DNA of 23,329 nucleotides, taken from IMG/VR virus record IMGVR_UViG_3300001589_003128, positions 1 through 23,329 of that record. One strand, 5' to 3'. Position numbers and translations under genes: made by a program. The DNA comes from a virus. Shown one piece after another: positions 9,489 through 23,329 of the stretch (its first letter is position 1; each line of letters starts with the position of its first letter). Under the pieces are notes generated by a model, which worked only from the letters and a program-made list of their open reading frames with translations, was not told where the DNA came from and searched no databases.

Positions 9489-9823
9489 TATTTTTTCCCC
9501 TTAAAGGTTTTATATTGATCCCAATCTTTGACCCAAACTCTACCATTTTCTTCTGCTTGTCTAAATACCATGTTTGTTACCATTATAGGAATTATTACAG
9601 CTAAGTGAATCCAAATAGAAGATACTATACTGTAGTTCTCCCATCCAATCCAAACCCATGCTACGATTCCAAAATAAGCGCTCCACATAATAAATAAAGC
9701 CATTGTAAAATAAGCTTGTATTGACGGATCAGCAATAAACCTTAAAGGGTTATATCTGTTATCCATTATAATTCTCCAACAATCAATAACAAACATTATT
9801 GTTCTTTTAATCAATTTAATCAT
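9488..9823 (-). CDS. 111-aa membrane protein, possible holin
   Basis: ATG 9823 overlaps the DUF3310 stop (ATGA). The N-terminus is basic and hydrophobic (MIKLIKRTIMFVIDCWRIIM). After DNRYNPLRFIADPS come two clear membrane helices: about 36-60 (AYFTMALFIMWSAYFGIVAW) and about 65-86 (SIVSSIWIHLAVIIPIMVTN). The tail is charged (WVKDWDQYKTFKGKK). I do not recognise the family. The topology and the directly adjacent, translationally coupled cell wall hydrolase make a holin or pinholin the leading guess, but this rests on context only. Confidence 0.7.
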   Translation of the reverse strand: MIKLIKRTIMFVIDCWRIIMDNRYNPLRFIADPSIQAYFTMALFIMWSAYFGIVAWVWIGWENYSIVSSIWIHLAVIIPIMVTNMVFRQAEENGRVWVKDWDQYKTFKGKK

Positions 9824-10107
9824 AGTTTAATGTCCCTGTCGTGCTCGCTAAGCGCGATTAATGCATAGTGTAATACTTTCATAAGATCTTTCCTATGATC
9901 ACTTCTATGACCTTTACGGCCGTATCTCTGTGCATATTTTAATATATTACCAATTGCAAAACCTATACCATGACCGCAGTCGGATATAAATTCTGTAGAT
10001 TGGAATTTGTTTTTAGAATAATGTCCCCCGTAGGTTTCATCGATATACGCTTGAAGCTCTGCAATTAGAGCTCCTTCGTTAAATTTGTAATCTGGTTTAT
10101 TTGCCAT
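9820..10107 (-). CDS. DUF3310 protein
   Basis: 95 aa from ATG 10107 with a strong GAGGAGG 10 nt upstream. The pattern YKFNEGALIAELQAYIDETY, then IGFAIGNILKYAQRYGRKGH, then DLMKVLHYALIAL, matches the DUF3310 family of small phage proteins ('GN-x-x-KY-x-x-R-x-x-x-KG...DL-x-KA-x-x-Y'). They are often annotated as putative nucleotide kinases, without firm evidence. It starts directly at the stop of the CobS-like gene and ends with an ATGA overlap into the membrane protein gene. Function unknown. Confidence 0.75.
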   Translation of the reverse strand: MANKPDYKFNEGALIAELQAYIDETYGGHYSKNKFQSTEFISDCGHGIGFAIGNILKYAQRYGRKGHRSDHRKDLMKVLHYALIALSEHDRDIKL

Positions 10108-11270
10108 TAATATAAATCCTCCTCTGACTCTGGGTTTTCTTCTAATACATCAGGAGTATCTTCTGTGATAACTCCTGAATCAACTTTTGTGTAAAGATCT
10201 AGAAACGCTGACTTAGTGTCTTCGTCGAATCTAGAAATACAAAGATCGATAGCTTTCATTCTATCATTAAAGATAGAAAATGTTTGGACAACGTGGCAAA
10301 GCCTACGTGTAGAAATAACTTCATCGACACCATCATCATAGAAAGTCTTTCTGATAATATCAGCCCATGTGACTAATCTATCTGCAAATTCTAAATCTAA
10401 AGAATCGAATTTATCCATATGTTTGTGTAGGATTTTCTTTTCGATTGCGATAGAAGGGAATAGTTGATCTATAGAGATAGTAAATCTTTCTAAGAAAGCT
10501 TCATCGATTATAGAAGCTGCAGTAAATCTGCCATCTTCTGAACCTTTACCTTTAGTATTCGCAGTAGCTATAACGTTGAATCCTTTAGCAGGAGAAATCA
10601 TTTCACCAGTCTTTTTAACTAGGACTGGTTTACCTTCTAAGATACCTTGAAGACACATGATCTTGTTAGTAGCTCTATCGATTTCGTCGAGTAAAAGTAT
10701 TGCACCATTTTCCATTGCTTTTAGAACTGGACCTTTAGAGAAAACTGTTTCACCATTAATCAATCTAAATCCACCAAGTAAATCATCTTCATCTGTTTCA
10801 GGGTTAATCTGAACTCTAATGAATTCTTTACCAGCTTTAGCACAAGCTTGTTCGACCATAAAGGTTTTACCATTTCCAGATAGACCTGAAATATATGTAG
10901 GGTAAAACATTTCTGATTTAATTATTTTCATAATGTCTGTGTAAGGACCCCATGGTACGAATGTAGGATCTGCTTTTGCAAAAGTCCTTTCATCATTACC
11001 AATTGAAGTAACTGAAGTAGCCATAGCAACGGCAGAATTTGGGATTGAATCGATTTTAGTATCCTCGGGCAGTAAACCATCTAGAGAGTAAGTACCGATC
11101 TTAACTCTGTTTGCTGGTGTAAGTAAAGGATAGAAATCCTTCTGGGTGTAACCAAAAGACTTGGCAACATCTTCGATGATTGCTCTACGGAAGTCCGTTT
11201 GGCCTGGGAATTTCTTAGATATCTCTTCTAAGATAATTCTGGTTGATTGTTTCATTTCACTTTTTTTCAT
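10107..11270 (-). CDS. cobS: CobS-like MoxR-type AAA+ ATPase
   Basis: 387 aa from ATG 11270 behind GAGGAG. Walker A is GLSGNGKT (about 129-136), followed by the CobS-like segment INPETDEDDLLGGFRL. The Walker B motif is AILLLDEIDRA (about 190-200), and FNVIATANTKGKG covers sensor 1. The region ASIIDEAFLERFTISIDQLF carries the arginine finger. The family is annotated as the cobaltochelatase CobS subunit in marine phages, but MoxR/CobS ATPases generally remodel a target through a VWA-domain partner. Such a partner (11385-13565) is encoded next door under a near-identical promoter, so the two probably work together. A role in B12 synthesis is doubtful. Confidence 0.88.
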   Translation of the reverse strand: MKKSEMKQSTRIILEEISKKFPGQTDFRRAIIEDVAKSFGYTQKDFYPLLTPANRVKIGTYSLDGLLPEDTKIDSIPNSAVAMATSVTSIGNDERTFAKADPTFVPWGPYTDIMKIIKSEMFYPTYISGLSGNGKTFMVEQACAKAGKEFIRVQINPETDEDDLLGGFRLINGETVFSKGPVLKAMENGAILLLDEIDRATNKIMCLQGILEGKPVLVKKTGEMISPAKGFNVIATANTKGKGSEDGRFTAASIIDEAFLERFTISIDQLFPSIAIEKKILHKHMDKFDSLDLEFADRLVTWADIIRKTFYDDGVDEVISTRRLCHVVQTFSIFNDRMKAIDLCISRFDEDTKSAFLDLYTKVDSGVITEDTPDVLEENPESEEDLY

Positions 11271-11308
11271 AATATATTAACTCCTCAGTTTTATTTTTTA
11301 ATGTATGT

Positions 11309-11337
11309 ATTATACCGTATTTCTGGCTCCTTGTAAA
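11309..11337 (-). promoter_or_regulatory. Early promoter of the CobS-like operon
   Basis: Minus strand TTTACA (11337-11332), 17 bp, TATAAT (11314-11309). Bases 11301-11322 are identical to 13591-13612 in the CobT-like gene promoter, indicating co-regulation or duplication. Confidence 0.82.
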
Positions 11338-11343
11338 CCTTTT

Positions 11344-11363
11344 TTTCGTCACAATTACGTGAA
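11344..11363 (-). repeat. 20-bp motif, inverted partner of 13666-13685
   Basis: On the minus strand it reads TTCACGTAATTGTGACGAAA. It differs by one base from the plus-strand sequence at 13666-13685. It contains TCAC-N6-GTGA, an operator-like inverted repeat, and lies 6 bp upstream of the CobS-like promoter -35. The two copies flank the CobT-like gene in opposite orientation. Confidence 0.65.
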
Positions 11364-11384
11364 CTTTTAGATTCTTTTGGCATA

Positions 11385-13565
11385 TTAAGCAACTTCTTTA
11401 CCAAATGATGTCATAAGAACTTTGTTTAATTTCTTTCCTTTAGAATGCTTTTTGAAAGCATTTCTTAGCTGAGCATCTGTTTCATTACCAAATATTTCGA
11501 ACTCTTCGTTCTCTGCAGATAGATTTTTACCACCTTTTAATAAGTAGTATTGATCATATCCAAATGCATTTTTTCTAGCAACACATTTGTTCTTTCTGTA
11601 TTCTGCTGCGCAGTCTTTTTTGAAATCATCATACATCTCATAATTGTATTCGCCATTCTCAATATCTCTTTTCATTGAGTATAATCTTTCTCTCCAATGA
11701 CTAGCATCATCAGCCATAAAGAAACCTATTGTTTTAGTATTATATCTTTTGCTTAGGTTAAGTAGAAGCTCTTTAGTACAATTATATCTTTTACCAAGAT
11801 CGATTCTTTTGCCATCGATGATAGCTTGATAACCACCATTGTAAGCATTAGTTTCTATCTTCTTAGATTCTAAAGCACGTGATTGAATTGCATTTAATCC
11901 ATTTGAATCACCATCTGTAAAGGTAACTAAATTCATTTTTTGGACCTGATGCTTGACCTTAAATTCTTTAACCAAATGATGAGCTACGAATAGCGCTTGA
12001 TTTAAAGGTGTTGAACCATATTCTTCGTACTTAGAAAGAGCATCATACCAGCTTCTGGATTGTTTTCTACCGTACATATGTCTTATTGAATCTTCATAAT
12101 CTTTTTTGTTAAGCGAAGATGAACATATAAGAGGCATGGATAAATTATCCATATAAAGATCACCATCTTTTCCGTTAAATGATTCGGTATTATTAGATGT
12201 AAACCCATAAACATCAAATGGAATTTGAACTGATTTACAGAACATAACCAAATGAAGAAGCTGATCCATAACATATGGCATTGATTGAGCCATAGAACCT
12301 GAAAAATCTACGATCATAATCATACCGTGATTTTTAGCATCTGCCAATCTAGTAACTTGAGAAAAGATATCTTCTGATGTTTTATAAGACCAAAGCTTAT
12401 TAACATCGATACGACCAGTTTTAGCAGTAGTAGCTCTAGTGTATTGGAATGCTGCCTTTCTTTGTTCGAATTCTTTAACAGCGAAGTTAACAGATCTCTT
12501 GGTTTCTTTAACGTATTCTTTGAACCCATCATATCTGGAATCATTTTCATTAATGTAATCATTTGACAATCTATCTGCTTTTAATTTTGCGTAAGGTATA
12601 ACTGCAATGTTTCTTTTAGATTTACTAACGTCATTAATTAATACTTTTTGTGAACCATTTTCATCTATATCTAATAGAGATTCTTCGTTTCTCCTAAAAG
12701 CTTCGTCTGTCTTAGAAACATCTTCTTCTGAATGTTCCGGTTGTTTGGAAATCTCTGCATTATTAGGATCACCTTCTAGATCTTCATCTGCAGAATCTGG
12801 ATTGTCATCCCCACCTTGGCCGTCAGGCTCCTCAGTGGCTGAATCCCCATCTTCATCTGCAGAATCGGAATCTTCTGTTGTTTCGTTTTCTTGTTCGCCT
12901 ACACCCTCTTCTGGTTCCATATCGTCATGGCCTTGGGGTATGTCTTCATTATCTTCCATTGGTATACCATCAGTATCTGGTTGTTCCTGTGGTTTTGGTT
13001 CCAATAGTTCTGGTTGGTTTTCTTTTGTATAAGCTAAGATATCTTTTGCTAACTGTACAACTTCATCGAAAGTTTCTGTTTTCATCATTCTATCAAAGAA
13101 GACTAGTTCTTCTGAATTAAAAGGAACGGTTGCAAGATGTGCTAATTTAGCTTTGATGTTTAACTTATCGATAAGCTTAACTTCATTCCATTCTAAATCA
13201 TCTACATCACCAAAGAATCCATCTTCTTTTAAAACCTTATATCCACGTGCCATAGGTCCAACTAGACCTGGGTAAATATTCTTAATAAATTTTTCGATCC
13301 TGGCATCTTCTACAACGTTAAGATATGATCTTGGAGCACCTGCTAATTTTTCTGGGCTATCGTGCCATCCTTCGAAAGGAGTATGTAATGCATGGGATAC
13401 TTCATGACCTACTAAAAGATCATAAACATCTTTACCCATATCTTTCCACATAGGTAAACCTAGAACACGATCTTTAACATCAAACCACGCAGTGTGGTAA
13501 TTACCATGCTTAATAGTAATGTTTTCTTTAGCTAGTAGCTTTGGTAGAATCGAACTTTGTAACAT
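11385..13565 (-). CDS. cobT: CobT-like VWA-domain protein with HExxH metalloprotease motif
   Basis: 726 aa from ATG 13565 behind AAGGAG. The N-terminal region (about 1-185) has VGHEVSHALHTPFEGWHD (H54-E55-H58, a zinc HExxH) and LNVVEDARIE, whose E86 could be the third ligand. Residues about 190-285 are a very acidic linker rich in D, E, S and G. The C-terminal half is a von Willebrand A domain with the MIDAS DFSGS (D420, S422, S424) and a later TFTDGDSN. The architecture is that of CobT-like partners of CobS/MoxR ATPases, with a putative protease domain added. It may be a substrate-processing or metal-inserting machine used on host or virion proteins (inference). No CobN-like large subunit is present in the window. 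Confidence 0.82.
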   Translation of the reverse strand: MLQSSILPKLLAKENITIKHGNYHTAWFDVKDRVLGLPMWKDMGKDVYDLLVGHEVSHALHTPFEGWHDSPEKLAGAPRSYLNVVEDARIEKFIKNIYPGLVGPMARGYKVLKEDGFFGDVDDLEWNEVKLIDKLNIKAKLAHLATVPFNSEELVFFDRMMKTETFDEVVQLAKDILAYTKENQPELLEPKPQEQPDTDGIPMEDNEDIPQGHDDMEPEEGVGEQENETTEDSDSADEDGDSATEEPDGQGGDDNPDSADEDLEGDPNNAEISKQPEHSEEDVSKTDEAFRRNEESLLDIDENGSQKVLINDVSKSKRNIAVIPYAKLKADRLSNDYINENDSRYDGFKEYVKETKRSVNFAVKEFEQRKAAFQYTRATTAKTGRIDVNKLWSYKTSEDIFSQVTRLADAKNHGMIMIVDFSGSMAQSMPYVMDQLLHLVMFCKSVQIPFDVYGFTSNNTESFNGKDGDLYMDNLSMPLICSSSLNKKDYEDSIRHMYGRKQSRSWYDALSKYEEYGSTPLNQALFVAHHLVKEFKVKHQVQKMNLVTFTDGDSNGLNAIQSRALESKKIETNAYNGGYQAIIDGKRIDLGKRYNCTKELLLNLSKRYNTKTIGFFMADDASHWRERLYSMKRDIENGEYNYEMYDDFKKDCAAEYRKNKCVARKNAFGYDQYYLLKGGKNLSAENEEFEIFGNETDAQLRNAFKKHSKGKKLNKVLMTSFGKEVA

Positions 13566-13598
13566 ATAAAACTCCTTATTTTTTTAAATGATGTATGT

Positions 13599-13627
13599 AT
13601 TATACCGTATTTTTGAGTGCTTGAGAA
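13599..13627 (-). promoter_or_regulatory. Early promoter of the CobT-like gene, degenerate -35
   Basis: The minus-strand TATAAT (13604-13599) has the same 22-bp surround as the CobS promoter. At the correct 17-bp spacing the -35 is only TTCTCA (13627-13622), although preceded by the usual G run (GGGGG). It is probably weaker or needs an activator. Confidence 0.65.
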
Positions 13628-13665
13628 CCCCCTCCCCCCTAAAATAACTCACTTTTTTACGATAT

Positions 13666-13685
13666 TTCACGTAGTTGTGACGAAA
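13666..13685 (+). repeat. 20-bp motif, inverted partner of 11344-11363
   Basis: The plus strand reads TTCACGTAGTTGTGACGAAA, 19 of 20 bases identical to the minus-strand motif at 11363-11344. It lies 39 bp upstream of the CobT-like promoter -35 and 20 bp from tRNA-Arg. The rest of the 140-bp gap between the CobT-like gene and tRNA-Arg holds only the promoter and a G-rich run (13626-13640). Confidence 0.65.
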
Positions 13686-13705
13686 CGATACGATTATTTA
13701 TTAAT

Positions 13706-13782
13706 TGGCGCACCCAGGAGGACTCGAACCTCCAACCCTCGGCTTAGAAGGCCGATGTTCTATCCAGTTGAACTATGGGTGC
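13706..13782 (-). tRNA. tRNA-Arg (anticodon UCU)
   Basis: Minus-strand cloverleaf with acceptor GCACCCA/TGGGTGC (7 perfect pairs), D stem GTTC/GAAC, anticodon stem TCGGC/GCCGA with loop CTTCTAA, and T stem GGAGG/CCTCC with loop TTCGAGT. The discriminator is G and CCA is encoded. It decodes AGA (and AGG), the favoured arginine codon in this AT-rich genome. It starts 6 nt after the stop of the 72-aa ORF and is probably cut from the gp55-47-46 transcript. Confidence 0.96.
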
Positions 13783-13788
13783 TTGGTT

Positions 13789-14007
13789 CTAGAAAGGCCA
13801 GGGGTTTGATGACCAGTCGCGATCTTTCTTAAGACAAATTTTGCCTTCTGTGTCTGTATACAATACAAACTTATCTCCGCTGGAGAAACCATGTCTTTCT
13901 AATTGTTCCATAGTAAGCTTGTCTTCATTATCACAAAATTGAATACCATATGGATTCATCTTAAGCTTATATTCGACATACATGATTTCAAATGGTTCGT
14001 TATCCAT
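13789..14007 (-). CDS. 72-aa hypothetical protein
   Basis: ATG 14007 with AGGA 7-8 nt upstream. The sequence MDNEPFEIMYVEYKLKMNPY, then GIQFCDNEDKLTMEQLERHG and KFVLYTDTEGKICLKKDRDW, suggests a small mixed alpha/beta fold. I recognise no family. It lies 12 bp after gene 46 and 6 bp before tRNA-Arg, as the last protein gene of the early 55-47-46 unit, so it is likely expressed early. Confidence 0.65.
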   Translation of the reverse strand: MDNEPFEIMYVEYKLKMNPYGIQFCDNEDKLTMEQLERHGFSSGDKFVLYTDTEGKICLKKDRDWSSNPWPF

Positions 14008-14019
14008 TTTAGATTCCTT

Positions 14020-15735
14020 TTATCTGATTTTGGAAAAGTTCTTTTGCTTAAAGAACTCTATTTTTGATCTAAATTTATTCTCTAATACATCGCCTTTGTG
14101 GGATATAATAAAGGTGTTGCTATCTTCGTCTAATGTATCTAATATTTTGGTCAGACTTTCTACTCCGTCGTGGTCTAGTGAACTATCAAATGTCTCGTCG
14201 AGTATCAAAAGATTTGTCGAGGCACTGTTTTTTAACTTAGCAATCTGTCTCCATGTAAATAGGAGACTTAAATCTATTCTTTGTTTCTCTCCTTCAGAAA
14301 ACGATGCATAATTAAAACTATCTCTATGGCGAGATCTAATTGTTTCATTAAAGTTTTCATCTAAGTGAAATGCAACAAAGAAATCTAACACTTGTAAATA
14401 ATTATTGATTAACCTATTCATAACAGGAAGATATTGTTTAATGACTTTAGTTTTAATACCAGTGTCTTTTAGCATTTCTCCTATTACTTCGTTATAGGTT
14501 CTTTCTTCAACGTATTCTATTTTCTTATCGATAATAGTTTCTTTGTTTGTCCTTAGGGCTTTTAACTCTTTCTTAGCAGCACCGGTATCACCAGTTTGGC
14601 TATTCAATTGATTAATTTCTTTTTGGATCTTATCTATTTCTTTCTGTATTACAGAAATTCTTTCATTGTTAGAATTAATCTTAGATTGTTTTTGTTTTAG
14701 GATATTAGTTTTATCAGAGATTTCTCTTAGTTGGTGTTGTAAAGTGTGGATTTCTTTTTCTAATCCAGCCTTTTCCTGTTGTATACCCTTAGCAGAATTT
14801 TGGATTAGCTGTATTTTCTTTTCTTTTAATTCTGGTCCTACATCTTGATCGCAGGTTGGACAATGGTCGTTGTCCTCATAGAATCTTGCTTGATCGACTA
14901 GATCCTTGATTTTTTGGTTATAGTTTAGATCTAATGATTTTAATTCGGACGATTGGTTTAGATTTTCTTTATGTCTTTTCTCTTCGCCTTTTAATAATGT
15001 CTCTAGATTCTTACCTAACTTTTTAGATTCTTCAAATGTGTCTTTTATAGTTTGCTTATGTACTTTAATAGAATCTCTTTTATTGTCAATTTGATCTTGG
15101 TTTAACGACTCTAGATCTTTTATATACTTTGATTGACCTGTAATCTTAGTCTTAAGTAATTCTATCTGGTGGCTAATATCAACTAACTCATCTCTTATCT
15201 TTGTATTACGTTCTTTCAATAATGTATTCATCTTAGAGAATATATTAATATCCAAAAGATCTTCTATTACAGACCTACGGGACCAAGCAGGTAATTGCAT
15301 AAATGGAATAAAAGAACTAGACCCTAATACAACTACTTGGTGAAATGATTTATGATTAAGTTTTAATATGTTTTGTTCTAAAAACTTTTGGTAATCCCTA
15401 GCGTTACTAGATTGATTAATCATATTACCATTCTGCCATATCTCAAACTTAGCCGGTTTAATACCACGGACAATTTTAAATTCTTGTCCACCTATATCAA
15501 ATTCAACAGTAACTTCTGCTTTCTTTTGATTAATAGAATTAACTAGTTGTCCTTTGTTAATATCTCTATGGGGTTTATTAAACAACGCAAAGGACATAGC
15601 ATCTAGTAAAGTGGATTTACCTGCACCGTTTTGTCCTACTATAAGTGTTGTTGGGGATTTATTCAATAAGACCTTAATTGGGTCTGTTCCAGTGGATAAG
15701 AAATTTTTCCACTCGCATGATTTAAAATTTATCAT
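14020..15735 (-). CDS. 46: Recombination endonuclease subunit gp46 (SbcC/Rad50-like)
   Basis: 571 aa (T4 gp46 is 560). Walker A is VGQNGAGKSTLLDAM (about 33-47). Two coiled-coil arms surround a zinc hook CPTCDQD (C292, C295). The ABC signature is SFSEGEKQRIDLS (about 478-490) and Walker B is LLILDETFDSSLDHDG (about 509-524). With gp47 it forms the Mre11/Rad50-type nuclease that resects DNA ends for recombination-dependent replication and degrades host DNA. ATG 15735 overlaps the gp47 stop by 4 nt (ATGA). Confidence 0.97.
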   Translation of the reverse strand: MINFKSCEWKNFLSTGTDPIKVLLNKSPTTLIVGQNGAGKSTLLDAMSFALFNKPHRDINKGQLVNSINQKKAEVTVEFDIGGQEFKIVRGIKPAKFEIWQNGNMINQSSNARDYQKFLEQNILKLNHKSFHQVVVLGSSSFIPFMQLPAWSRRSVIEDLLDINIFSKMNTLLKERNTKIRDELVDISHQIELLKTKITGQSKYIKDLESLNQDQIDNKRDSIKVHKQTIKDTFEESKKLGKNLETLLKGEEKRHKENLNQSSELKSLDLNYNQKIKDLVDQARFYEDNDHCPTCDQDVGPELKEKKIQLIQNSAKGIQQEKAGLEKEIHTLQHQLREISDKTNILKQKQSKINSNNERISVIQKEIDKIQKEINQLNSQTGDTGAAKKELKALRTNKETIIDKKIEYVEERTYNEVIGEMLKDTGIKTKVIKQYLPVMNRLINNYLQVLDFFVAFHLDENFNETIRSRHRDSFNYASFSEGEKQRIDLSLLFTWRQIAKLKNSASTNLLILDETFDSSLDHDGVESLTKILDTLDEDSNTFIISHKGDVLENKFRSKIEFFKQKNFSKIR

Positions 15736-16793
15736 AATATCTCTAGATTCTGTGCCTCCGTATAAAGCTTACGGAGCTCTACTTTAATATGATCTTTATC
15801 AAGATCTGTTTCTACTGCATCAACATATGAATCTAGAAGTGTTGTTGTATCTTCCATGGATATTTTCTCGTCTTCGACGCTTTCTCCAAGATACTCTTCA
15901 AAGCTTTCTGCTATTTTTAGTTCATAGGTTTCAATACTATTTAACTTATCTACGAACTTGTCGAACATATATAAGTCATTTTTATTTATAACAATTAATT
16001 TAATGAAATGTTTTTCGTATTGGGTAACATCTACTTCGTTATAATCTAATTTACTGTCATCATAAACTACTTTTTTAAATATAGTAAGTGGGTTACGCAC
16101 GGGCGTAAGCTCGCGTGTATCTGTATCTAATACATGAAAGTATTTAGGATCGTCTACATCTGCCCAGGTAAACTCCATTTGAGAACCTAGATAATGAACG
16201 TTATCCCTACTTGATTTAGTATGGAAATGTCCTGTTAATACAGATTCAAATCTCGAGAAGATATCTGCATTCATACCATGTGGATTAGGCATACCTGCCA
16301 TCATTTCAAAACCTTTTAATTCTAAGTGAGCTCCTAGTATTGGTGCTTGACATTGCATTGCCCATTTAGTATATTCTTCTAGATTAGCATTATTAATCCA
16401 AGGTAATACCCCAATCTTTAAACCATCGTAGTCCAAAACTGTTGGCTTCATAACAATGTTTACGTTAGTGGTAAAGTAACCTAATAGTTCTTTTAAGGAG
16501 CATAGTTCATTGGTATTCTTAAAGTATACATCATGATTACCAGGAATGATATCCATAGTAATACCAGCATCACGCAAAGGTTCAAGAAAATGTTTACGAT
16601 TTGCATTAAGAGCTTTAAAATTCACAAACTTGCGATGTTCATAATAATCCCCTAGGTGGAGGATGTTTTTAATCTTATGTTCTTTTAGATAAGGAAAAAA
16701 TACTTCTTCATAGAATCTTTCTTGATAATTTAAGAAAATGTCTGAAGAGTTTCGGACGCCACAATGCGTATCATTTAATATTGCTACTTTCAT
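15732..16793 (-). CDS. 47: Recombination nuclease gp47 (SbcD/Mre11-like)
   Basis: 353 aa. The calcineurin-type phosphoesterase metal motifs are all visible: NDTHCG (D8, H10), HLGDYYEHR, IIPGNHDVYF, a GAHLEL strand and LTGHFHTKS. It is the nuclease half of the gp46/47 complex, giving 3' overhangs for UvsX-mediated strand invasion. The ATG directly follows the gene 55 stop (TAAATG) with GAG 4 nt before it, and the 3' end overlaps gene 46 by 4 nt. Confidence 0.96.
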   Translation of the reverse strand: MKVAILNDTHCGVRNSSDIFLNYQERFYEEVFFPYLKEHKIKNILHLGDYYEHRKFVNFKALNANRKHFLEPLRDAGITMDIIPGNHDVYFKNTNELCSLKELLGYFTTNVNIVMKPTVLDYDGLKIGVLPWINNANLEEYTKWAMQCQAPILGAHLELKGFEMMAGMPNPHGMNADIFSRFESVLTGHFHTKSSRDNVHYLGSQMEFTWADVDDPKYFHVLDTDTRELTPVRNPLTIFKKVVYDDSKLDYNEVDVTQYEKHFIKLIVINKNDLYMFDKFVDKLNSIETYELKIAESFEEYLGESVEDEKISMEDTTTLLDSYVDAVETDLDKDHIKVELRKLYTEAQNLEIL

Positions 16794-17360
16794 TTATCTC
16801 ATGAAAAGCTCTAGCTTTTCTATTTCCTTTTCTTTTTTTGCAAAATCTTTTACTGCTTCATCTTTCTTTCTAACAGTACTTATCCTTTGTCTAAGTGTAT
16901 CAACATAGTTCATAGTCTCTTCAGCACCTGCACCATCCATACCCATTTCTACAAAATCATCAATACCCATTTTTTCAATGAACCTGAATTTAATTTCTTG
17001 TTGCTTTTTCTCTTTCGTAATTCTACGGATAAAAGCATAGAAACATATTTGTGTAAAGTAACTAAACGCATTAGGATTACCTGTACGTGTAGCGGTTTCG
17101 ATCTTATAGTTATTGATTGCTCTTAAACAGTTTTCTACGGCATCCATAACCATTTCTTCTCTGTAAGTATATCTTACGAAGTTTGGTCTGTGCGATAGTC
17201 CCTCTGAAATTTTTATAAAGCACTTTGCAATATAATCCGTAACTGTTGGTTTTGGTAATTCGTTCTTTTTTGCTTTGTCGCATTCTTTAACGTATTCTAC
17301 AACTGCTAATGAAAACTCCTTATTGTTAATATAATGAGCCTTGTTCTTTTTTGTTGCCAT
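16794..17360 (-). CDS. 55: Late-transcription sigma factor gp55
   Basis: 188 aa (T4 gp55 is 185) from ATG 17360 with GGAG upstream. The segments IAKCFIKISEGLSHRPNFVR, EEMVMDAVENCLRAINNYK and NPNAFSYFTQICFYAFIRRI match the region-2-like core that T4 gp55 uses to bind RNA polymerase and melt the TATAAATA late promoter. It is first in an early unit with genes 47 and 46. Its presence agrees with the TATAAATA boxes at 5612, 8212 and 21420. Confidence 0.93.
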   Translation of the reverse strand: MATKKNKAHYINNKEFSLAVVEYVKECDKAKKNELPKPTVTDYIAKCFIKISEGLSHRPNFVRYTYREEMVMDAVENCLRAINNYKIETATRTGNPNAFSYFTQICFYAFIRRITKEKKQQEIKFRFIEKMGIDDFVEMGMDGAGAEETMNYVDTLRQRISTVRKKDEAVKDFAKKEKEIEKLELFMR

Positions 17361-17394
17361 AATTCTATATCTCCATTTTTTAATAGAAGGTACT

Positions 17395-17423
17395 ATTATA
17401 CCATACTTTTGGGTAAAAGTAAA
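17395..17423 (-). promoter_or_regulatory. Early promoter of gene 55
   Basis: Minus strand GGGGTTTACT (-35 TTTACT at 17423-17418), 17 bp, TATAAT (17400-17395). Predicted start at about 17388, 28 nt before the ATG. It is back to back with the plus-strand promoter at 17450-17478; together GTAAACCCC and GGGGTTTAC form a 9-bp inverted repeat. Confidence 0.85.
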
Positions 17424-17449
17424 CCCCTTAATTTATTTTCGCTAGGGGG

Positions 17450-17478
17450 TTTACAAAACACATTTTTTATGATATAAT
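17450..17478 (+). promoter_or_regulatory. Lone plus-strand early promoter
   Basis: Plus strand GGGGGTTTACA (-35 TTTACA at 17450-17455), exactly 17 bp, TATAAT (17473-17478). It is as good a match as any promoter in the window, but points against all identified genes. Predicted start at 17485. The transcript would run antisense to the barrel-protein gene and uvsW. Confidence 0.75.
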
Positions 17479-17507
17479 AATAGAGTCCATTCGAGGGAAG
17501 AGGTACA

Positions 17508-17912
17508 CTAATGAATAGTTTTCTTCTTACCAATAAACCCTTCTTCTTCAAACATCTCAGCCATTTGATCATCAACTTCCATTTCTAATTCTTCTAATAT
17601 TTCCATAGTAGATCGGCTTTCTAATTTGGGTTTAGATAGATTTGACTTAGCATTTAAAACAAACTTAACATAAGCTTCTTTTATTTCTTCGTCGACTGGG
17701 GTTGATTGTAAAACATTAGTAAATCTTATTTTATAATTCTCTTCTTTCGAGAAAGGAAACCATGGTGAAAATTGATAGCCATTTATTATTCCAGCTGTAA
17801 TCTGAACCGGTAGTCCAAGATACCAATTGTCATCATTTTTAGAGTTAACAGCAGCTATGATTTGCTCGCCATTAATGAGTTTAAAGTGTCTTACTTTTAA
17901 ATCTTCTTCCAT
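17508..17912 (-). CDS. LSm-barrel-like protein (paralogue of 1618-1923)
   Basis: 134 aa from ATG 17912, directly after the uvsW stop (TAAATG) and with no clear Shine-Dalgarno, so probably coupled. The strand-rich N-terminus HFKLINGEQIIAAVNSKNDD, then LPVQITAG, SPWFPFSKEE and TPVDEEIKEAYVKF, parallels the 101-aa protein at 1618-1923. It adds a C-terminal acidic helix (EILEELEMEVDDQMAEMFEE), then GFIGKKKTIH. The function is unknown; the barrel fold is inference. Its 3' end faces the lone plus-strand promoter and may be an antisense target. Confidence 0.72.
   Translation of the reverse strand: MEEDLKVRHFKLINGEQIIAAVNSKNDDNWYLGLPVQITAGIINGYQFSPWFPFSKEENYKIRFTNVLQSTPVDEEIKEAYVKFVLNAKSNLSKPKLESRSTMEILEELEMEVDDQMAEMFEEEGFIGKKKTIH
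17511..17588 (+). CDS. Possible 25-aa leader peptide or antisense ORF
   Basis: An ATG at 17511 lies 26 nt after the predicted start of the plus-strand promoter, with AGAGG seven bases upstream (GGGAAGAGGTACACTAATG). It encodes MNSFLLTNKPFFFKHLSHLI plus five residues (INFHF), then TAA. The ORF runs antisense to the end of the minus-strand gene 17508-17912, beginning just beyond that gene's stop. Promoter, spacing and ribosome site are what suggest it is real; the peptide itself resembles nothing I know, and the RNA may act as an antisense regulator rather than a message. Confidence 0.3.
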   Translation: MNSFLLTNKPFFFKHLSHLIINFHF

Positions 17913-19418
17913 TTAAATATTTACTTCGTGTAATTCGTAATCAAATTTTTCTTTACTATATATCTTTATTCGTTCTGCAGCGTGTTCAAGAGTATAGTTC
18001 TTTTTAGTCTTCCAATGTAAATCATCTGCTATATCAAATACTTGTGTATCTCTATCACTTTTTCTAAGTCCTCTACCAATAGATTGTAATACTCTTATTT
18101 GGCTTTTTGACGGTGAAGCAAAGATTAAATTGTGTAGTCTCTTTATATTTATACCCGTAGAGAATGTGCCTAATGAAGCTACAATAATTGCATTCTCTTC
18201 TTTCTCAGTTATCGCGCGTACGCTCTCTCGCGTGTCCACGTCTGTCTCGCCTGAGACATAAAAAAGCTTCCTATCTTTACCTTTAAGTTTTTCTTTTAAG
18301 ATGTTATGTAAGGGTTTTCCATGCTTTTCGACGTAATTAAACAGGATTAAACTATTACCTTCGAGGTCAATAGCTAAGTTAGAAACAAAATTATTTCGGG
18401 GAGTATACCTTACAATAAAGTCTAACTCCTCTTGGTATTTTAGTTTAGATATTTCTTTACAGTGCTCTTCTTTATATTTTAATAGGATCATTTTAATATC
18501 TAGTTTAGCTAACTGATCAGAATCGATTAATTCTTTTGTTGTAGTTACTTTATTTACTGGTCCAAATAATCCTTCTAATACTAATTGATGTGTTTGTGTT
18601 CCATCCAACGTACCAGTAGTTCCTATACGATATTCTGCTTCTGTACATTTTTCCATAATGGATGTTAATGACTTAGCTTTAAATTGATGTGCTTCATCAC
18701 CGATAACCATTCCAAAGTTCTGGAAGAATTCTGCAGGTCTTTTATATATGGATTGCCATGTAGATATAACTATTCTTTCTAGCATTGCACCCTTCTGAAC
18801 ACCACCGTGTATTTTATTTGCCCATTCGTCTATATGAAAAAAATCATCTTTCATACTATAATCAGCAAAGTCTGAATACATTTGTTCTACTAAAGAAATA
18901 GTTGGAACTATAATTAATATCTTCTTACTTGGATCGTGATCTATATACCATCTAGATGCTAAGTAAATAATTAAAGATTTACCGGATGCAGTCGGAGATA
19001 ATAGTAAAGCATTTTTGTTTGTTAGCGAGTGTCCTAGAGCGTTTAACTGATAGTCACGGGGTGTAATTGGTACTTGATTAGATGTTAGTTTTAAATTATC
19101 TAACCATTCTTTATTGATATATGTTCTGTCTTCAACTGGATCTAACTCACCATACTGCTTAGAAGAGGCCGTCAGGACTTCGTATTCACGCTGTACAGCA
19201 AACTCCTTTAGATACTTATATAAACCAATGTATAAAGTTTTCTTACGCGAATCAAACAGTCTTATTTTTCCATCCCAATATTTGTTTCTATATGCAGGCA
19301 TAAACTTATACCCAGGAACATAAAAACAGAAATGCTCAGTCAGTTCCATTTCAATACTAGGATCTGTTTCGATGTACATGAACGCGTGGTTCTTCTTTAC
19401 AATCTTTATTTGATCCAT
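17913..19418 (-). CDS. uvsW: UvsW recombination DNA/RNA helicase
   Basis: 501 aa, like T4 UvsW. An N-terminal DNA-binding domain (residues 1-115) is followed by ITPRDYQLNAL (Q motif), LSPTASGKSLI (Walker A, about 140-150), ILIIVPTISLVEQM (Ia), GDEAHQF (motif II, about 240-246), GTTGTLDGT (motif III) and LQSIGRGLRKSDRD (motif VI). UvsW unwinds R-loops and branch-migrates replication forks, shutting off origin-dependent replication late in infection. It overlaps the upstream glycosyltransferase gene by one base. Confidence 0.95.
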   Translation of the reverse strand: MDQIKIVKKNHAFMYIETDPSIEMELTEHFCFYVPGYKFMPAYRNKYWDGKIRLFDSRKKTLYIGLYKYLKEFAVQREYEVLTASSKQYGELDPVEDRTYINKEWLDNLKLTSNQVPITPRDYQLNALGHSLTNKNALLLSPTASGKSLIIYLASRWYIDHDPSKKILIIVPTISLVEQMYSDFADYSMKDDFFHIDEWANKIHGGVQKGAMLERIVISTWQSIYKRPAEFFQNFGMVIGDEAHQFKAKSLTSIMEKCTEAEYRIGTTGTLDGTQTHQLVLEGLFGPVNKVTTTKELIDSDQLAKLDIKMILLKYKEEHCKEISKLKYQEELDFIVRYTPRNNFVSNLAIDLEGNSLILFNYVEKHGKPLHNILKEKLKGKDRKLFYVSGETDVDTRESVRAITEKEENAIIVASLGTFSTGINIKRLHNLIFASPSKSQIRVLQSIGRGLRKSDRDTQVFDIADDLHWKTKKNYTLEHAAERIKIYSKEKFDYELHEVNI

Positions 19419-20311
19419 TAGATAATTTCTTTTAATCGTTTCACAGTACTATTTATATCACTACAAAGATAACCATATATGTACCAATTAATAAACTTGT
19501 TTGCGTAGAATGGATCATGCCAAGTTAAATCTGTAATTAAATCTTCTAGTTGGGTTAATGATTGTAATTGTTTTGTAGCCCAATGGTATTCAGGAAATCC
19601 ATAAGATATGATTGGTACCTGATGCATTAAACATTCTATTCCAGCAGTACTATTTTCTGTAATAGCTACTCTTGTTTTAGGTAATACATCATGAATACTG
19701 ACATATCCTTCTATTACCCTAATCCCAGATTTTTTCCACTGGTTAATCTGGTTTGTTTTTCTTTTATCCTGGAATGATGGGTGTAATTTAACTACAATCG
19801 GTCTTGTCTGTGATACTAATAACTTGGCAACAATACTACAAATTTTAGTCCAATGGTTACCAAATCCGAATCCATCTACTGTTTCATCTTTAGGTTGTTG
19901 TACTATAACGAGAACATGATCTTTAGGAAAGTTTTTTCTCAAATCGTCTTTCCATTTAACCATAATAGAATCATCCCATTTATTAGATTTAGATTTAATT
20001 AATTCTGATATATCGGAATTATCAGTATATTCTTTTTTTAATCCAATCGGCTCTTTAAATGCTAGTGTAGAACTATTAGCGTACCCGTGGGTATCTATTG
20101 CAAAGTGATCACTGGTAGGACCAGTTGGTTTAAAAATAAGAGTATATTCGCTCCAGGCTGGAACTTCTGATATATGACAATGATTGTATATATCAATATC
20201 AGCGATATCGCTTTGGCTTTCAGTATGTCCTAGAACAGACATAGCTTGATGTATTACGTTTTCGTGTTTAGTAAAATTATCGAAACGGTATTGATGTATT
20301 TTATATTCCAC
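19418..20311 (-). CDS. Capsule-synthesis-type glycosyltransferase-like protein
   Basis: About 297 aa from GTG 20311, overlapping the uvsY end; an in-frame TTG at 20332 is the alternative and neither has a clear ribosome site. The C-terminal half has VVKLHPSFQD, then VIEGYVSIHDVLPKTRVAIT, ENSTAGIECLMHQVPIISYG and FPEYH. This is the pattern of the KpsC/KpsS capsule polysaccharide synthase family, a GT-B fold in which 'HP' and 'NSTxGxE' contact the sugar nucleotide. The N-terminal half (YTLIFKPTGP; FAIDTHGYAN) is less conserved. It may modify host surface sugars or phage components (inference). It is an unexpected cargo gene between uvsY and uvsW. Confidence 0.62.
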   Translation of the reverse strand: MEYKIHQYRFDNFTKHENVIHQAMSVLGHTESQSDIADIDIYNHCHISEVPAWSEYTLIFKPTGPTSDHFAIDTHGYANSSTLAFKEPIGLKKEYTDNSDISELIKSKSNKWDDSIMVKWKDDLRKNFPKDHVLVIVQQPKDETVDGFGFGNHWTKICSIVAKLLVSQTRPIVVKLHPSFQDKRKTNQINQWKKSGIRVIEGYVSIHDVLPKTRVAITENSTAGIECLMHQVPIISYGFPEYHWATKQLQSLTQLEDLITDLTWHDPFYANKFINWYIYGYLCSDINSTVKRLKEII

Positions 20312-20744
20312 TAGTAAATTTACGCCACTCAATCATATTCTTAATTGTTTGGTGACGCCATTTAATGCTATCTAATATCTCTTTTAGAGTACTACATAAT
20401 TCTTCTTGATATGCTATTCTTTTTTGCATTTCTTGGATAATAGGATCTGAATCATAATACTTATCCATATCGGATTTAAGTACTGTTAGTCCATTTAATG
20501 GATCGTATTCCCATCCTTTTTCATTTAATTCGTCTTGGGTTAGTTTACCATTATAATGATTAAACTTATCTCTAAGTAAAACCTTAAAGTCTAATTCTAA
20601 TTGTTTCAATTTTAATCTGCTTACACTATATATCTCCAAGTATTTGGAGTGTAGTTTTGCTGTTGCTCGGGAGGATTCATCTAATGCCATTTCATCAATA
20701 ACATTATCTTTTTTCCACATTTCTAATACATTTTCTAAGTTCAT
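20301..20744 (-). CDS. uvsY: UvsY recombination mediator
   Basis: 147 aa (T4 UvsY is 137) from ATG 20744. The N-terminus MNLENVLEMWKKDNVIDEMA, LHSKYLEIYSVSRLKLKQLE, KVLLRDKFNHYNGKL and the C-terminal IKWRHQTIKNMIEWRKF follow T4 UvsY (LYSKWLNKHSSIKKEML; YYSG; IKSRGFAIKHIQDMRAF). UvsY loads UvsX recombinase onto gp32-coated ssDNA. The -10 box ends 7 nt before the ATG, so the mRNA should have no leader or a single base. Confidence 0.93.
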   Translation of the reverse strand: MNLENVLEMWKKDNVIDEMALDESSRATAKLHSKYLEIYSVSRLKLKQLELDFKVLLRDKFNHYNGKLTQDELNEKGWEYDPLNGLTVLKSDMDKYYDSDPIIQEMQKRIAYQEELCSTLKEILDSIKWRHQTIKNMIEWRKFTSGI

Positions 20745-20751
20745 AACGTAT

Positions 20752-20780
20752 ATTATACCACAGTTTACGAGAAAAGTAAA
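20752..20780 (-). promoter_or_regulatory. Early promoter of uvsY, predicts leaderless mRNA
   Basis: Minus strand GGGGTTTACT (-35 at 20780-20775), 17 bp, TATAAT (20757-20752). Predicted +1 is 20745 or 20744; the ATG begins at 20744. Confidence 0.83.
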
Positions 20781-20783
20781 CCC

Positions 20784-21254
20784 CTATCTAAATTCAAATG
20801 ATGTGTATTTTAGTACTAAGTCTGCTTGTACGTACTCTATATCTGTTGCTTGTGCGTTGAATTCTGTTGCGCTTAGAGATATAGGAAATACCCCTGAAAA
20901 TGCAATTTCTTTATTAACATTATTATGTGATGACAATATCTGAAGTACTGCATCAAATTTATAATTCCTATCAGCATCTTTTTTCTGTGCGCTGTTAGTT
21001 AACCAGTTAAACGTTTCTATATAGTTTTCCATATTTTCAGTAACGTTAAACCGAATAGCAAGATCTTCAAATCCCATCCTATCACCTGTAAATGCAAGGT
21101 TAACACCTTTATACGGGATTGGAACATCACCCAGGGAAACCCCGGGTAACGTTACGGCTGTACAAAAATATTCCAAATTTGGAAAATTTGTATTGTCGAT
21201 CTTAAAGTTAAACCCTACTGGGCTTAAAAAGTTCTTGTTGGTTGTTAATGCCAT
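20784..21254 (-). CDS. Tail-tube-fold protein (gp19/gp3-like)
   Basis: 156 aa from ATG 21254, one base after the stop of the 43-aa gene. FLSPVGFNFKIDNTNFPNLE, then YFCTAVTLPGVSLGDVPIPY, GDRMGFEDLAIRFNVTENME and a C-terminal IEYVQADLVLKYTSFEF match the T4 gp19-type tail tube fold (PNLF..CKATALPA...AGDRTFDDWTVTVM). In marine T4-like phages the gene between 23 and uvsY is usually annotated gp3, the tail tube terminator, so by position this may be gp3 rather than the main tube protein; sequence alone does not decide. It follows a late promoter, fitting a structural gene. Confidence 0.75.
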   Translation of the reverse strand: MALTTNKNFLSPVGFNFKIDNTNFPNLEYFCTAVTLPGVSLGDVPIPYKGVNLAFTGDRMGFEDLAIRFNVTENMENYIETFNWLTNSAQKKDADRNYKFDAVLQILSSHNNVNKEIAFSGVFPISLSATEFNAQATDIEYVQADLVLKYTSFEFR

Positions 21255-21255
21255 T

Positions 21256-21387
21256 TTATGTTATATTTTTCCTAATAACTTTGTGGAGTCTACCTGATTT
21301 CATCATTTTGTGAAATTTGCGATCCTGCAAAAGAAGATACCAGCCTAATATCGCCCATGGCAATAACAATAGTGTCATTGCTTCCAT
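21256..21387 (-). CDS. 43-aa small membrane protein
   Basis: ATG 21387 with AGAGG 8 nt upstream; stop at 21258-21256. The sequence MEAMTLLLLPWAILGWYLLL is a membrane segment, followed by a very basic tail (QDRKFHKMMKSGRLHKVIRK, then NIT). It lies about 33 nt downstream of a TATAAATA late promoter and is followed one base later by the tail-tube-fold gene, so it is the first gene of that late unit. No family recognised. Function unknown; a positive-inside single-pass membrane peptide made late could be lysis-related or virion-associated. Confidence 0.68.
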   Translation of the reverse strand: MEAMTLLLLPWAILGWYLLLQDRKFHKMMKSGRLHKVIRKNIT

Positions 21388-21419
21388 GTATGTGTACCTC
21401 TTTTTTCATAATGTAATAC

Positions 21420-21427
21420 TATTTATA
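21420..21427 (-). promoter_or_regulatory. T4-type late promoter for the 43-aa / tail-tube unit
   Basis: Minus strand TATAAATA, in the context CGTATAAATAGTATT, between the gp23 terminator and the 43-aa gene. The downstream GTATT is close to the T4 late consensus TATAAATACTATT. Confidence 0.8.
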
Positions 21428-21448
21428 CGACCTAAAAAACTAATCTAC

Positions 21449-21474
21449 AAAAAAAGGGACACCGAAGTGCCCCT
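21449..21474 (-). terminator. Intrinsic terminator after gene 23
   Basis: Minus-strand hairpin AGGGGCAC-TTCG-GTGTCCCT (21474-21455): 8 pairs, UUCG tetraloop, followed by a run of seven T. It is 28 bp after the major capsid stop. Confidence 0.93.
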
Positions 21475-21502
21475 TAATCGAATTAGATTTAACTAATCAG
21501 GT

Positions 21503-22843
21503 TTACACCATGATGTCGTCAACTCTGAAGATTCTGAAGTATTGGTTGGATCTATCTGCACCGACAGTCCCATCAATAGCTACGTAAGGATTAGCAATCA
21601 TGCCGTACCTTGTTTTGAATCCCATTCTAGGTTGGAAGTCATTCTCACCAACTGCTTTAACCATAGTTAAAGGAACGTATGGACAATAGAATAGTCCTGC
21701 GTCATATGGATTTGAACCTCTGTAACCAACACATGCGAAATCAACAGTTGAATATGGATCAATGTAAACTTTCATTCTGCCATTTAAGACACCTGCGAAA
21801 GTATTACCAGTATCGTCAACATTCAAGTTAGCTGATAAAGCTGGAGTGTAGTCTAATAGACCAGCAGCTGCTAGAGCTGAAGCAACGTCTGAAGAACATA
21901 ATACGAAATTACCTTTTCCTCTTCTTGTTTCTTTAGCGATAACATTAGCTTCTCTTTCGAGTTGCATAATTAGACCTTTAAACTTCTCTACCATCCATCT
22001 ACCATCTGAGTCTGTACCGACGTCAAAGATACCTGAAGTAGCAGTTGAAGATTGAAGTGCACCGATTTTAGCAGTTTTTAGAACTGTTCTAATAACTTCT
22101 CTGTTGATTTCCGCTAGGATTTCAGATGATAAGATATTAGCAAGTTCGCCTTCTGCGTCTAAGCCGTGAACGGCTTTAAGATCTTGTGCTAGTTCCATTG
22201 TGTACTCAGCTTTTAATGCTCTTGATTTAGCAGTTACTGTAGCTTTCTCGATTGTGAAAGCCATCTCACCGAATGCACCGTCGCCTGATTCGCCAACACC
22301 TAGTCTTTCTGCGGCTGAGGTAGCTATACCTGCACCGAATGTTGAGACTGTGTCGCTTTCATCTGCGATTGTACCGTCAGTGTCTGCATCAGAAACACCA
22401 GATAGACCTGTTGGGTCTGCTTGATGTGTACCTGCTCCAGAGAAATCAGTATCAGCTTCATTAAAGAATGCTTCTGTTCCTGATTGAGTTGCGTACTTTG
22501 ATTTCATTGCAAAGATAAGTCCAGTAGGACCAGTCATAGGCTGAACACCTGCGATATCATATGCAATAAGGTTTGGCATTGCTCTTCTTACGAGAGAGAT
22601 CAATACTGGGTCAAAAGTTCCGATGTTATTCGGAGCTGAACCTGTACCAATATTGTTAGCAGCAGCTGCTTCAGAAATGTAATTTCCTTGCGCCTGTGCT
22701 TGTTCTTCTCTCAAAGCAACTTCTTGGTTCTCTAACAATCTAGCTGTAACAGCTTTCTTGTAGCGGTCTTCAATAGCTGGAGCACTTTCGTGATCTAGTA
22801 CTGGTGACCATTTTTCGATTAATTGTGAATCTGCGTTAAACAT
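21503..22843 (-). CDS. 23: Major capsid protein gp23
   Basis: 446 aa (T4 gp23 is 521) from ATG 22843, with AAGGGG upstream. The N-terminal propeptide (MFNADSQLIEKWSPVLDHES...) ends at ISE58-AAAA, matching the (I/L)xE cleavage rule of the gp21 prohead protease. After that come GTFDPVLISLVRRAMPNLIA, YDIAGVQPMTGPTGLIFAMK, the insertion region with many D, G and T, the ELAQDLKAVHGLDAEGELAN helix and the C-terminal FQPRMGFKTRYGMIANP, all typical of T4-like capsid proteins. It forms hexamers of the head shell, and probably needs GroEL with the phage GroES-like protein to fold. Confidence 0.98.
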   Translation of the reverse strand: MFNADSQLIEKWSPVLDHESAPAIEDRYKKAVTARLLENQEVALREEQAQAQGNYISEAAAANNIGTGSAPNNIGTFDPVLISLVRRAMPNLIAYDIAGVQPMTGPTGLIFAMKSKYATQSGTEAFFNEADTDFSGAGTHQADPTGLSGVSDADTDGTIADESDTVSTFGAGIATSAAERLGVGESGDGAFGEMAFTIEKATVTAKSRALKAEYTMELAQDLKAVHGLDAEGELANILSSEILAEINREVIRTVLKTAKIGALQSSTATSGIFDVGTDSDGRWMVEKFKGLIMQLEREANVIAKETRRGKGNFVLCSSDVASALAAAGLLDYTPALSANLNVDDTGNTFAGVLNGRMKVYIDPYSTVDFACVGYRGSNPYDAGLFYCPYVPLTMVKAVGENDFQPRMGFKTRYGMIANPYVAIDGTVGADRSNQYFRIFRVDDIMV

Positions 22844-22861
22844 TTGTTTTCCCCTTTAAGA

Positions 22862-23329
22862 TTACTTATTAAATTTAGTTATAGCCTGAGTGTATCTAGA
22901 CATAGTGTCGGATTGGACTTCGACCGGAGCCTCGTCTTCACCTACCATGCTATTTACTTCGTCAACCGATTCCTTAACTTCACCTTTGAAATATGATTGT
23001 TTGATAGTGTCAACTTTCTGTTGGAAAGTATCTATATTATCAAACTCAACATCTTCACAGAGTTTAGCTAATTTTTCGGCTTCAGTTTCTGCAAGCCCTG
23101 AAGATGCTTCTCTAACAATTTGGTCTTTCTCGAAAGATGAGACTTTGTTGTGTAAAGAGATATTATCTTCTGTGGATTTATTTAAAGATTCTTCTAGTTC
23201 AGATACTTGCTCGGCTAGATCGTCGATTAAGTCTTCTTTACCTTCTGGAACCTCGATATAATGTTCTTTGAACACTGCTTGTAAGGAAGTCATAAAGTCT
23301 TCAGCAATCTCGGTTTTAAGACCTTGATT
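22862..23329 (-). CDS. 22: Prohead scaffold protein gp22, 5' end beyond window
   Basis: The frame is open to base 23329 and upstream of an internal ATG at 23293, giving 155 visible residues. EDFMTSLQAVFKEHYIEVPE corresponds to an internal T4 gp22 segment (ESMLGGLKELFVEHNVVVPE), so the true start lies outside the window. Long acidic helices follow (DLIDDLAEQVSELEESLNKS), ending SDTMSRYTQAITKFNK. gp22 is the core scaffold on which gp23 assembles; it is degraded by gp21. It lies 18 bp before gene 23 in the usual T4 order. No late promoter for gene 23 is seen in this stretch. Confidence 0.9.
   Translation of the reverse strand, partial: NQGLKTEIAEDFMTSLQAVFKEHYIEVPEGKEDLIDDLAEQVSELEESLNKSTEDNISLHNKVSSFEKDQIVREASSGLAETEAEKLAKLCEDVEFDNIDTFQQKVDTIKQSYFKGEVKESVDEVNSMVGEDEAPVEVQSDTMSRYTQAITKFNK

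Follow-up and report, generated by a model that had tools for sequence, protein, structure and literature searches.

Near-universal conservation of a backward promoter beside gene 55 of marine T4-like phages suggests a switch in gene regulation and not a cryptic mini-protein

Position and make-up of the backward promoter

The locus considered here raises the question of what a promoter that faces backwards relative to every gene around it might be doing there. The window, namely, the whole 23,329-nucleotide stretch of viral DNA that was analysed (IMG/VR record IMGVR_UViG_3300001589_003128), contains seven promoters of the (G)GGGTTTAC[A/T]-17-TATAAT family, six of which lie on the minus strand before genes, with only the seventh being found on the plus strand and hence opposed to all other genes, as the initial annotation had described. 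This promoter lies in a gap of 147 bp (17361-17507) that separates gene 55, encoding the late sigma factor (16794-17360, minus strand; assigned from the ORF list and gp55 relatives), from the gene encoding a "barrel" protein (17508-17912, minus strand), beyond which is found the uvsW helicase gene (17913-19418, minus strand; assigned from the ORF and synteny with annotated isolates). In the window sequence, the promoter (17445-17478, plus strand) comprises a G run (GGGGG, 17445-17449) just upstream of the -35 box TTTACA (17450-17455), a 17-bp spacer and an extended -10 box TATAAT (17473-17478) with TG 5' of it. The back-to-back arrangement that had been proposed for the gap was also found, with a gene 55 promoter of the same family being directed along the minus strand (17395-17423; -35 TTTACT, 17423-17418; -10 TATAAT, 17400-17395). 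The two -35 boxes are separated by 26 bp (17424-17449), which is one of the helically phased classes described below.

The (G)TTTAC-type -35, the 17-bp spacing and the TATAAT box are those of the early set of this phage group. No plus-strand gene lies downstream of the antisense promoter in the window and, being placed opposite coding genes with no gene of its own, the promoter is of the cis-antisense kind. T4-type early promoters share the GTTTAC-like -35, the TATAAT -10 and the 17-bp spacing, whereas the gp55-gap promoter has no gene behind it, precedes a G-rich leader and keeps helical phase with a divergent partner. Transcription is predicted to start at A or G at 17484-17485 on the plus strand, since an A/G pair 6-7 nt past the -10 box is kept among the aligned loci, with G at the offset of the predicted start in 60 of 72 distinct sequences and A one base earlier in 63 of them; this agrees with the start near 17485 proposed earlier.

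Conservation of the promoter and of its leader

To follow the promoter across relatives, 80 IMG/VR loci, chosen as carrying the closest relatives of gp55 and representing 72 distinct sequences and 660 kb in total, were considered. The antisense promoter was present in the gp55 gap of all 80, always with a spacer of exactly 17 bp and with TATAAT unchanged. Across the 72 distinct sequences, information content reached up to 2 bits per position in the hexamers and was mostly below 1 in the spacer, which is near random. Strong promoters opposing genes were found 83 times in the 660 kb, with 80 of these corresponding to the gp55-gap promoter, one per locus. As the same pattern runs against genes in only 3 other places, the antisense promoter cannot be ascribed to chance. 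In the 113-kb contig of locus L082, the gp55-gap promoter is the sole match to its pattern on that strand.

The same gap was examined in 13 Kyanoviridae isolates of several genera, namely, C48C1, HTVC008M, P-SSM2, S-PM2, Syn1, Mosig, Melnitz, ACG-2014b, ACG-2014d, ACG-2014f, S-RIM2, S-RIM14 and S-B05. A clear antisense TTGACA-type promoter was found in 12 of these, with the Melnitz copy being weak. The loss of the -35 and -10 boxes in relatives, which the initial annotation had held to count against the promoter, was thus seen neither among the metagenomic loci nor, clearly, in 12 of the isolates. No nucleotide relatives of the window were found among phage isolates. One IMG/VR locus (L005, IMGVR_UViG_3300025137_000120) is 99.9% identical to positions 9511-23329 of the window and probably comes from the same population.

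The predicted RNA begins with a G-rich leader (17485-17509, plus strand) that contains GAGGG and AGAGG and an inverted repeat, as delineated by G content, arm covariation and folding, the latter predicting a hairpin at approximately 17485-17506. The first 25 nt from the predicted start are 37% G, as compared to 17% at 148 sense promoters, and GGG is present in the leader at 82% of the antisense promoters but at only 3% of the sense promoters. The arms of the repeat covary, in that each sequence's own arms pair better than do swapped arms (z ~6; 0 of 400 permutations), although this permutation ignores relatedness, such that the z value is not to be read as a probability. Exact two-base compensatory changes were noted in two background pairs (L034 versus L036/L047, and L066 versus L072). 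Single-sequence folds of the leader were no better in energy than those of shuffled sequences.

Conservation of the RNA among loci does not extend past about +40, so that no specific antisense target is indicated by sequence. No intrinsic terminator was found on the antisense strand of the window up to position 21500, and antisense intrinsic terminators that might mark the end of the RNA occur at the background rate. Judging from the alignments, what is kept is the promoter, a predicted start near the AG at 17484/17485 and a G-rich leader of ~25 nt with a covarying repeat.

Helical phasing and phage-specific -35 boxes

Among the IMG/VR loci, the distance between the -35 boxes of the divergent pair falls into classes of 23-27, 32-37, 42-47 and 54-58 bp, with nothing between the classes. 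In 33 representatives, phasing reached an R of 0.66, a value attained by none of 5000 draws from a uniform null (p < 1/5000), and the gp55 tree calls for at least 26 changes between gap classes. Two control distances, namely, the length of the 5'-UTR and the distance to the stop codon, were unphased. In the isolates, gaps of -16, -7, 3, 5, 24, 35 and 57 were measured; compared with the phase of the first set, these gave p values of 0.0009, 0.004, 0.04 and 0.18 at periods of 10.25, 10.5, 10.75 and 11, respectively. Because the null ignores descent and because overlapping boxes share bases that may impose gaps near -7, the evidence for helical phasing is graded as strong in the metagenome set and as supportive, in a period-dependent manner, in the isolates. 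At the cyanophage gaps of -16 or -7, the two promoters overlap, and hence simultaneous binding cannot explain phasing there. Such phase locking suggests, for both promoters, a reader that has to stay on one face of the DNA, for example, the alpha subunits of the polymerase or a phage -35 factor. Together, the near-universal conservation of the backward promoter in marine T4-like phages and its fixed helical alignment with the gene 55 promoter suggest a real regulatory switch.

Phages differ from one another in the T/G core of the -35 box and in the four bases preceding it, yet within any one phage these bases are common to the promoters, the antisense promoter included. As a separate observation, the strong promoters of loci L007-L086 share their -35 within each phage, as would be expected if a factor encoded by the phage read them. 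Most cyanophage genomes contain one or two further copies of the promoter together with the start of the leader, AACNNTGT, with the same variant being used within a given genome. These copies, found in Syn1 (16507), S-PM2 (162737), ACG-2014b (12546 and 46676), S-RIM2 (13388 and 48201), ACG-2014d (36925) and S-RIM14 (52997 and 163192), precede CpeT or early gene clusters, with a position between CP12 and CpeT being among those found. From their sequences, the AACNNTGT-bearing copies look like a small co-evolving promoter set and, given their recurrence before genes and the one variant per genome, the antisense promoter is taken to belong to a working set of promoters.

Possible roles of the divergent pair

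With the -35 and -10 boxes being kept throughout the 80 loci and clearly in 12 of the 13 isolates, a counter-gene antisense RNA, predicted to oppose first the "barrel" protein gene and then uvsW, is a good reading of the locus. The initial annotation had offered either an antisense regulator or a micropeptide; the conservation of the boxes in relatives favors an antisense RNA, with regulation by it being putative, while the micropeptide is disfavored by a frame that is not conserved. Antisense RNA is already known in these phages, given that CfrI of S-PM2, which is located at psbA and a gene for an endonuclease, was shown experimentally (Millard 2010, described in PMC2984593). Like CfrI, the RNA predicted here from sequence would be antisense to coding genes of a T4-like marine phage; by contrast, the promoter considered here sits at the gap between gene 55 and its neighbor, is conserved family-wide and is known from its sequence. 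In the literature searched, no description of the gp55-gap promoter was found, and it is in this sense so far undescribed; a Syn9 start-site study that lay outside that search may list it.

The likeliest explanation, albeit a tentative one, is that a conserved divergent pair has this promoter as its antisense arm, which imposes an early block on the "barrel" protein gene and uvsW that is lifted at the late switch. By its sequence, this arm is a sigma70-type promoter carrying the phage's own -35 signature; it points away from gene 55, towards the 3'-terminal part of the "barrel" protein gene and uvsW, with the pair lying at the point at which the uvsY-uvsW-"barrel" cassette meets gene 55. The promoter would be used early by the host RNA polymerase to yield an untranslated RNA, possibly shielded by the structure of its 5' leader. 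Antisense transcription, together with coupling to the gene 55 promoter, would then keep expression of the opposed segment down until the shift to late transcription, when the early promoters are shut. The UvsW protein of T4 is made late and removes R-loops (PMC3016281), which fits such an early block. Cyanophages are without MotA and AsiA (PMC2984593). A more specific proposal, to be entertained with greater reserve, is that the pair, phase-locked over ~7 turns (-16 to +58 bp) across the Kyanoviridae and bearing phage-specific, co-evolving -35 boxes, is a face-of-helix switch, linking expression of the late sigma factor gene with untranslated antisense transcription opposed to uvsW and the "barrel" protein gene. 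Helical phasing would offer a clue to how early transcription is coupled with the late switch in these phages. If transcribed, the antisense RNA would be one maintained, beside the "barrel" protein gene and uvsW, in a phage group that ranks among the most abundant of the sea, at the point where the early and late programmes meet.

It is also possible, if rather doubtful, that the antisense promoter serves the gene 55 promoter, acting at the level of DNA through competition, cooperativity or supercoil coupling to tune the timing of the late sigma factor, with any RNA being a by-product. The helical phase lock of the two -35 boxes points in this direction, as do the adjacent or overlapping -35 boxes of cyanophages and the correlation between the -35 types of the two promoters, although that correlation is partly genome wide. 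Moreover, such a role would not account for locus L018, where the pair is split by 217 bp and off phase yet the antisense promoter still adjoins the "barrel" protein gene, nor for a -10 box and leader that are conserved as fully as in a used promoter.

A replication origin of the R-loop kind, resembling T4 oriF, at which G-rich RNA from an early-type promoter would stay hybridised and prime leading-strand synthesis, is an unlikely alternative. It would suit an orphan promoter with G clusters right after its start, lying near uvsW and uvsY, genes with counterparts in T4 that are relevant to R-loop origins (PMC3016281). Indeed, T4 oriF, or ori(uvsY), likewise involves a phage promoter making RNA in the uvsY-uvsW neighborhood (PMC3016281), where here the RNA is predicted. 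T4 oriF, however, relies on a MotA middle promoter and an A+T-rich unwinding element (PMC3016281), while the -35 box considered here is of the early rather than the MotA type, and the promoter is reversed relative to the genes. Because an early-mode promoter appears to be required at T4 oriE (PMC3016281), the missing MotA-type promoter does not exclude every origin. Still, the DNA downstream is no richer in A+T than at sense promoters (~65% at both), and the position of the promoter relative to GC-skew extremes is inconsistent among genomes, a skew minimum being near the promoter in HTVC008M and C48C1 but not in S-PM2 or Syn1 (2 of 5 genomes in which the position is known). In cyanophages, moreover, the same leader precedes ordinary genes.

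The "barrel" protein (T4-GC 139; PF16243; PHROG 471/527), encoded by the nearest antisense target, is Sm-like according to its profile match to PDB 3by7 (E 2.8e-6) and to an AlphaFold model (mean pLDDT 85.6) that matches 3by7 with a target TM-score of ~0.9. It thereby shares the fold of 3by7/PF16243, an Sm-like protein of putative cyanophage origin, a likeness that concerns the neighboring protein and not the promoter. The Syn1 homologue scores above the PF16243 cut-off, whereas the window copy, searched as a single sequence and bearing an acidic tail, falls below it. In many cyanophages, T4-GC 139 is labelled "methylamine utilization", where profile and fold indicate an Sm-like protein. A trans-acting small RNA working with this neighbor is improbable. 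The Sm-like assignment and the confinement of conservation to the 5' leader are what would be expected of it; no conserved terminator or 3' end was found, Rfam gave no match at the locus, and RNA binding by the Sm-like family is only putative.

Less probable still is a sense-strand role for the inverted repeat, by which the uvsW-Sm-like transcript would be terminated or would carry a structured 3'-UTR. The repeat directly follows the stop codon, the sense strand is C-rich there, and the wobble pairs (20 G-U, 29 A-C) do not tell the strands apart; yet the hairpin is not followed by a T run, and such a role would leave the invariant antisense -10 and -35 boxes and the start-site pattern unexplained.

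Finally, the 25-codon antisense ORF (17511-17588, plus strand) was rejected as a micropeptide gene and almost certainly is not one: the AGAGG (17499-17503) that had been noted seven bases before ATG 17511 is indeed present in the window but does not form a conserved unit with the ATG, the distance from purine run to ATG varying between loci, and the frame read from the conserved position ranges from 1 to 81 codons, being Met-stop in 8 loci. Read on the opposite strand, the ATG is itself the last codon of the Sm-like gene before its stop, an invariant His codon, and, as this gene ends His-stop in all 74 extracted proteins, the antisense start codon is of necessity ATG or GTG.

Two minor observations concern the neighboring genes. 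The Sm-like protein of the window and of 74 relatives ends in a hypervariable acidic tail that always closes with His, mostly as Thr-Ile-His, a pattern in the sequences suggesting that this C-terminal tripeptide may be a binding or processing signal. Between uvsY and uvsW, the window contains an ORF with a TTG start (19418-20332), a place occupied by other genes in HTVC008M, Mosig and P-SSM2.
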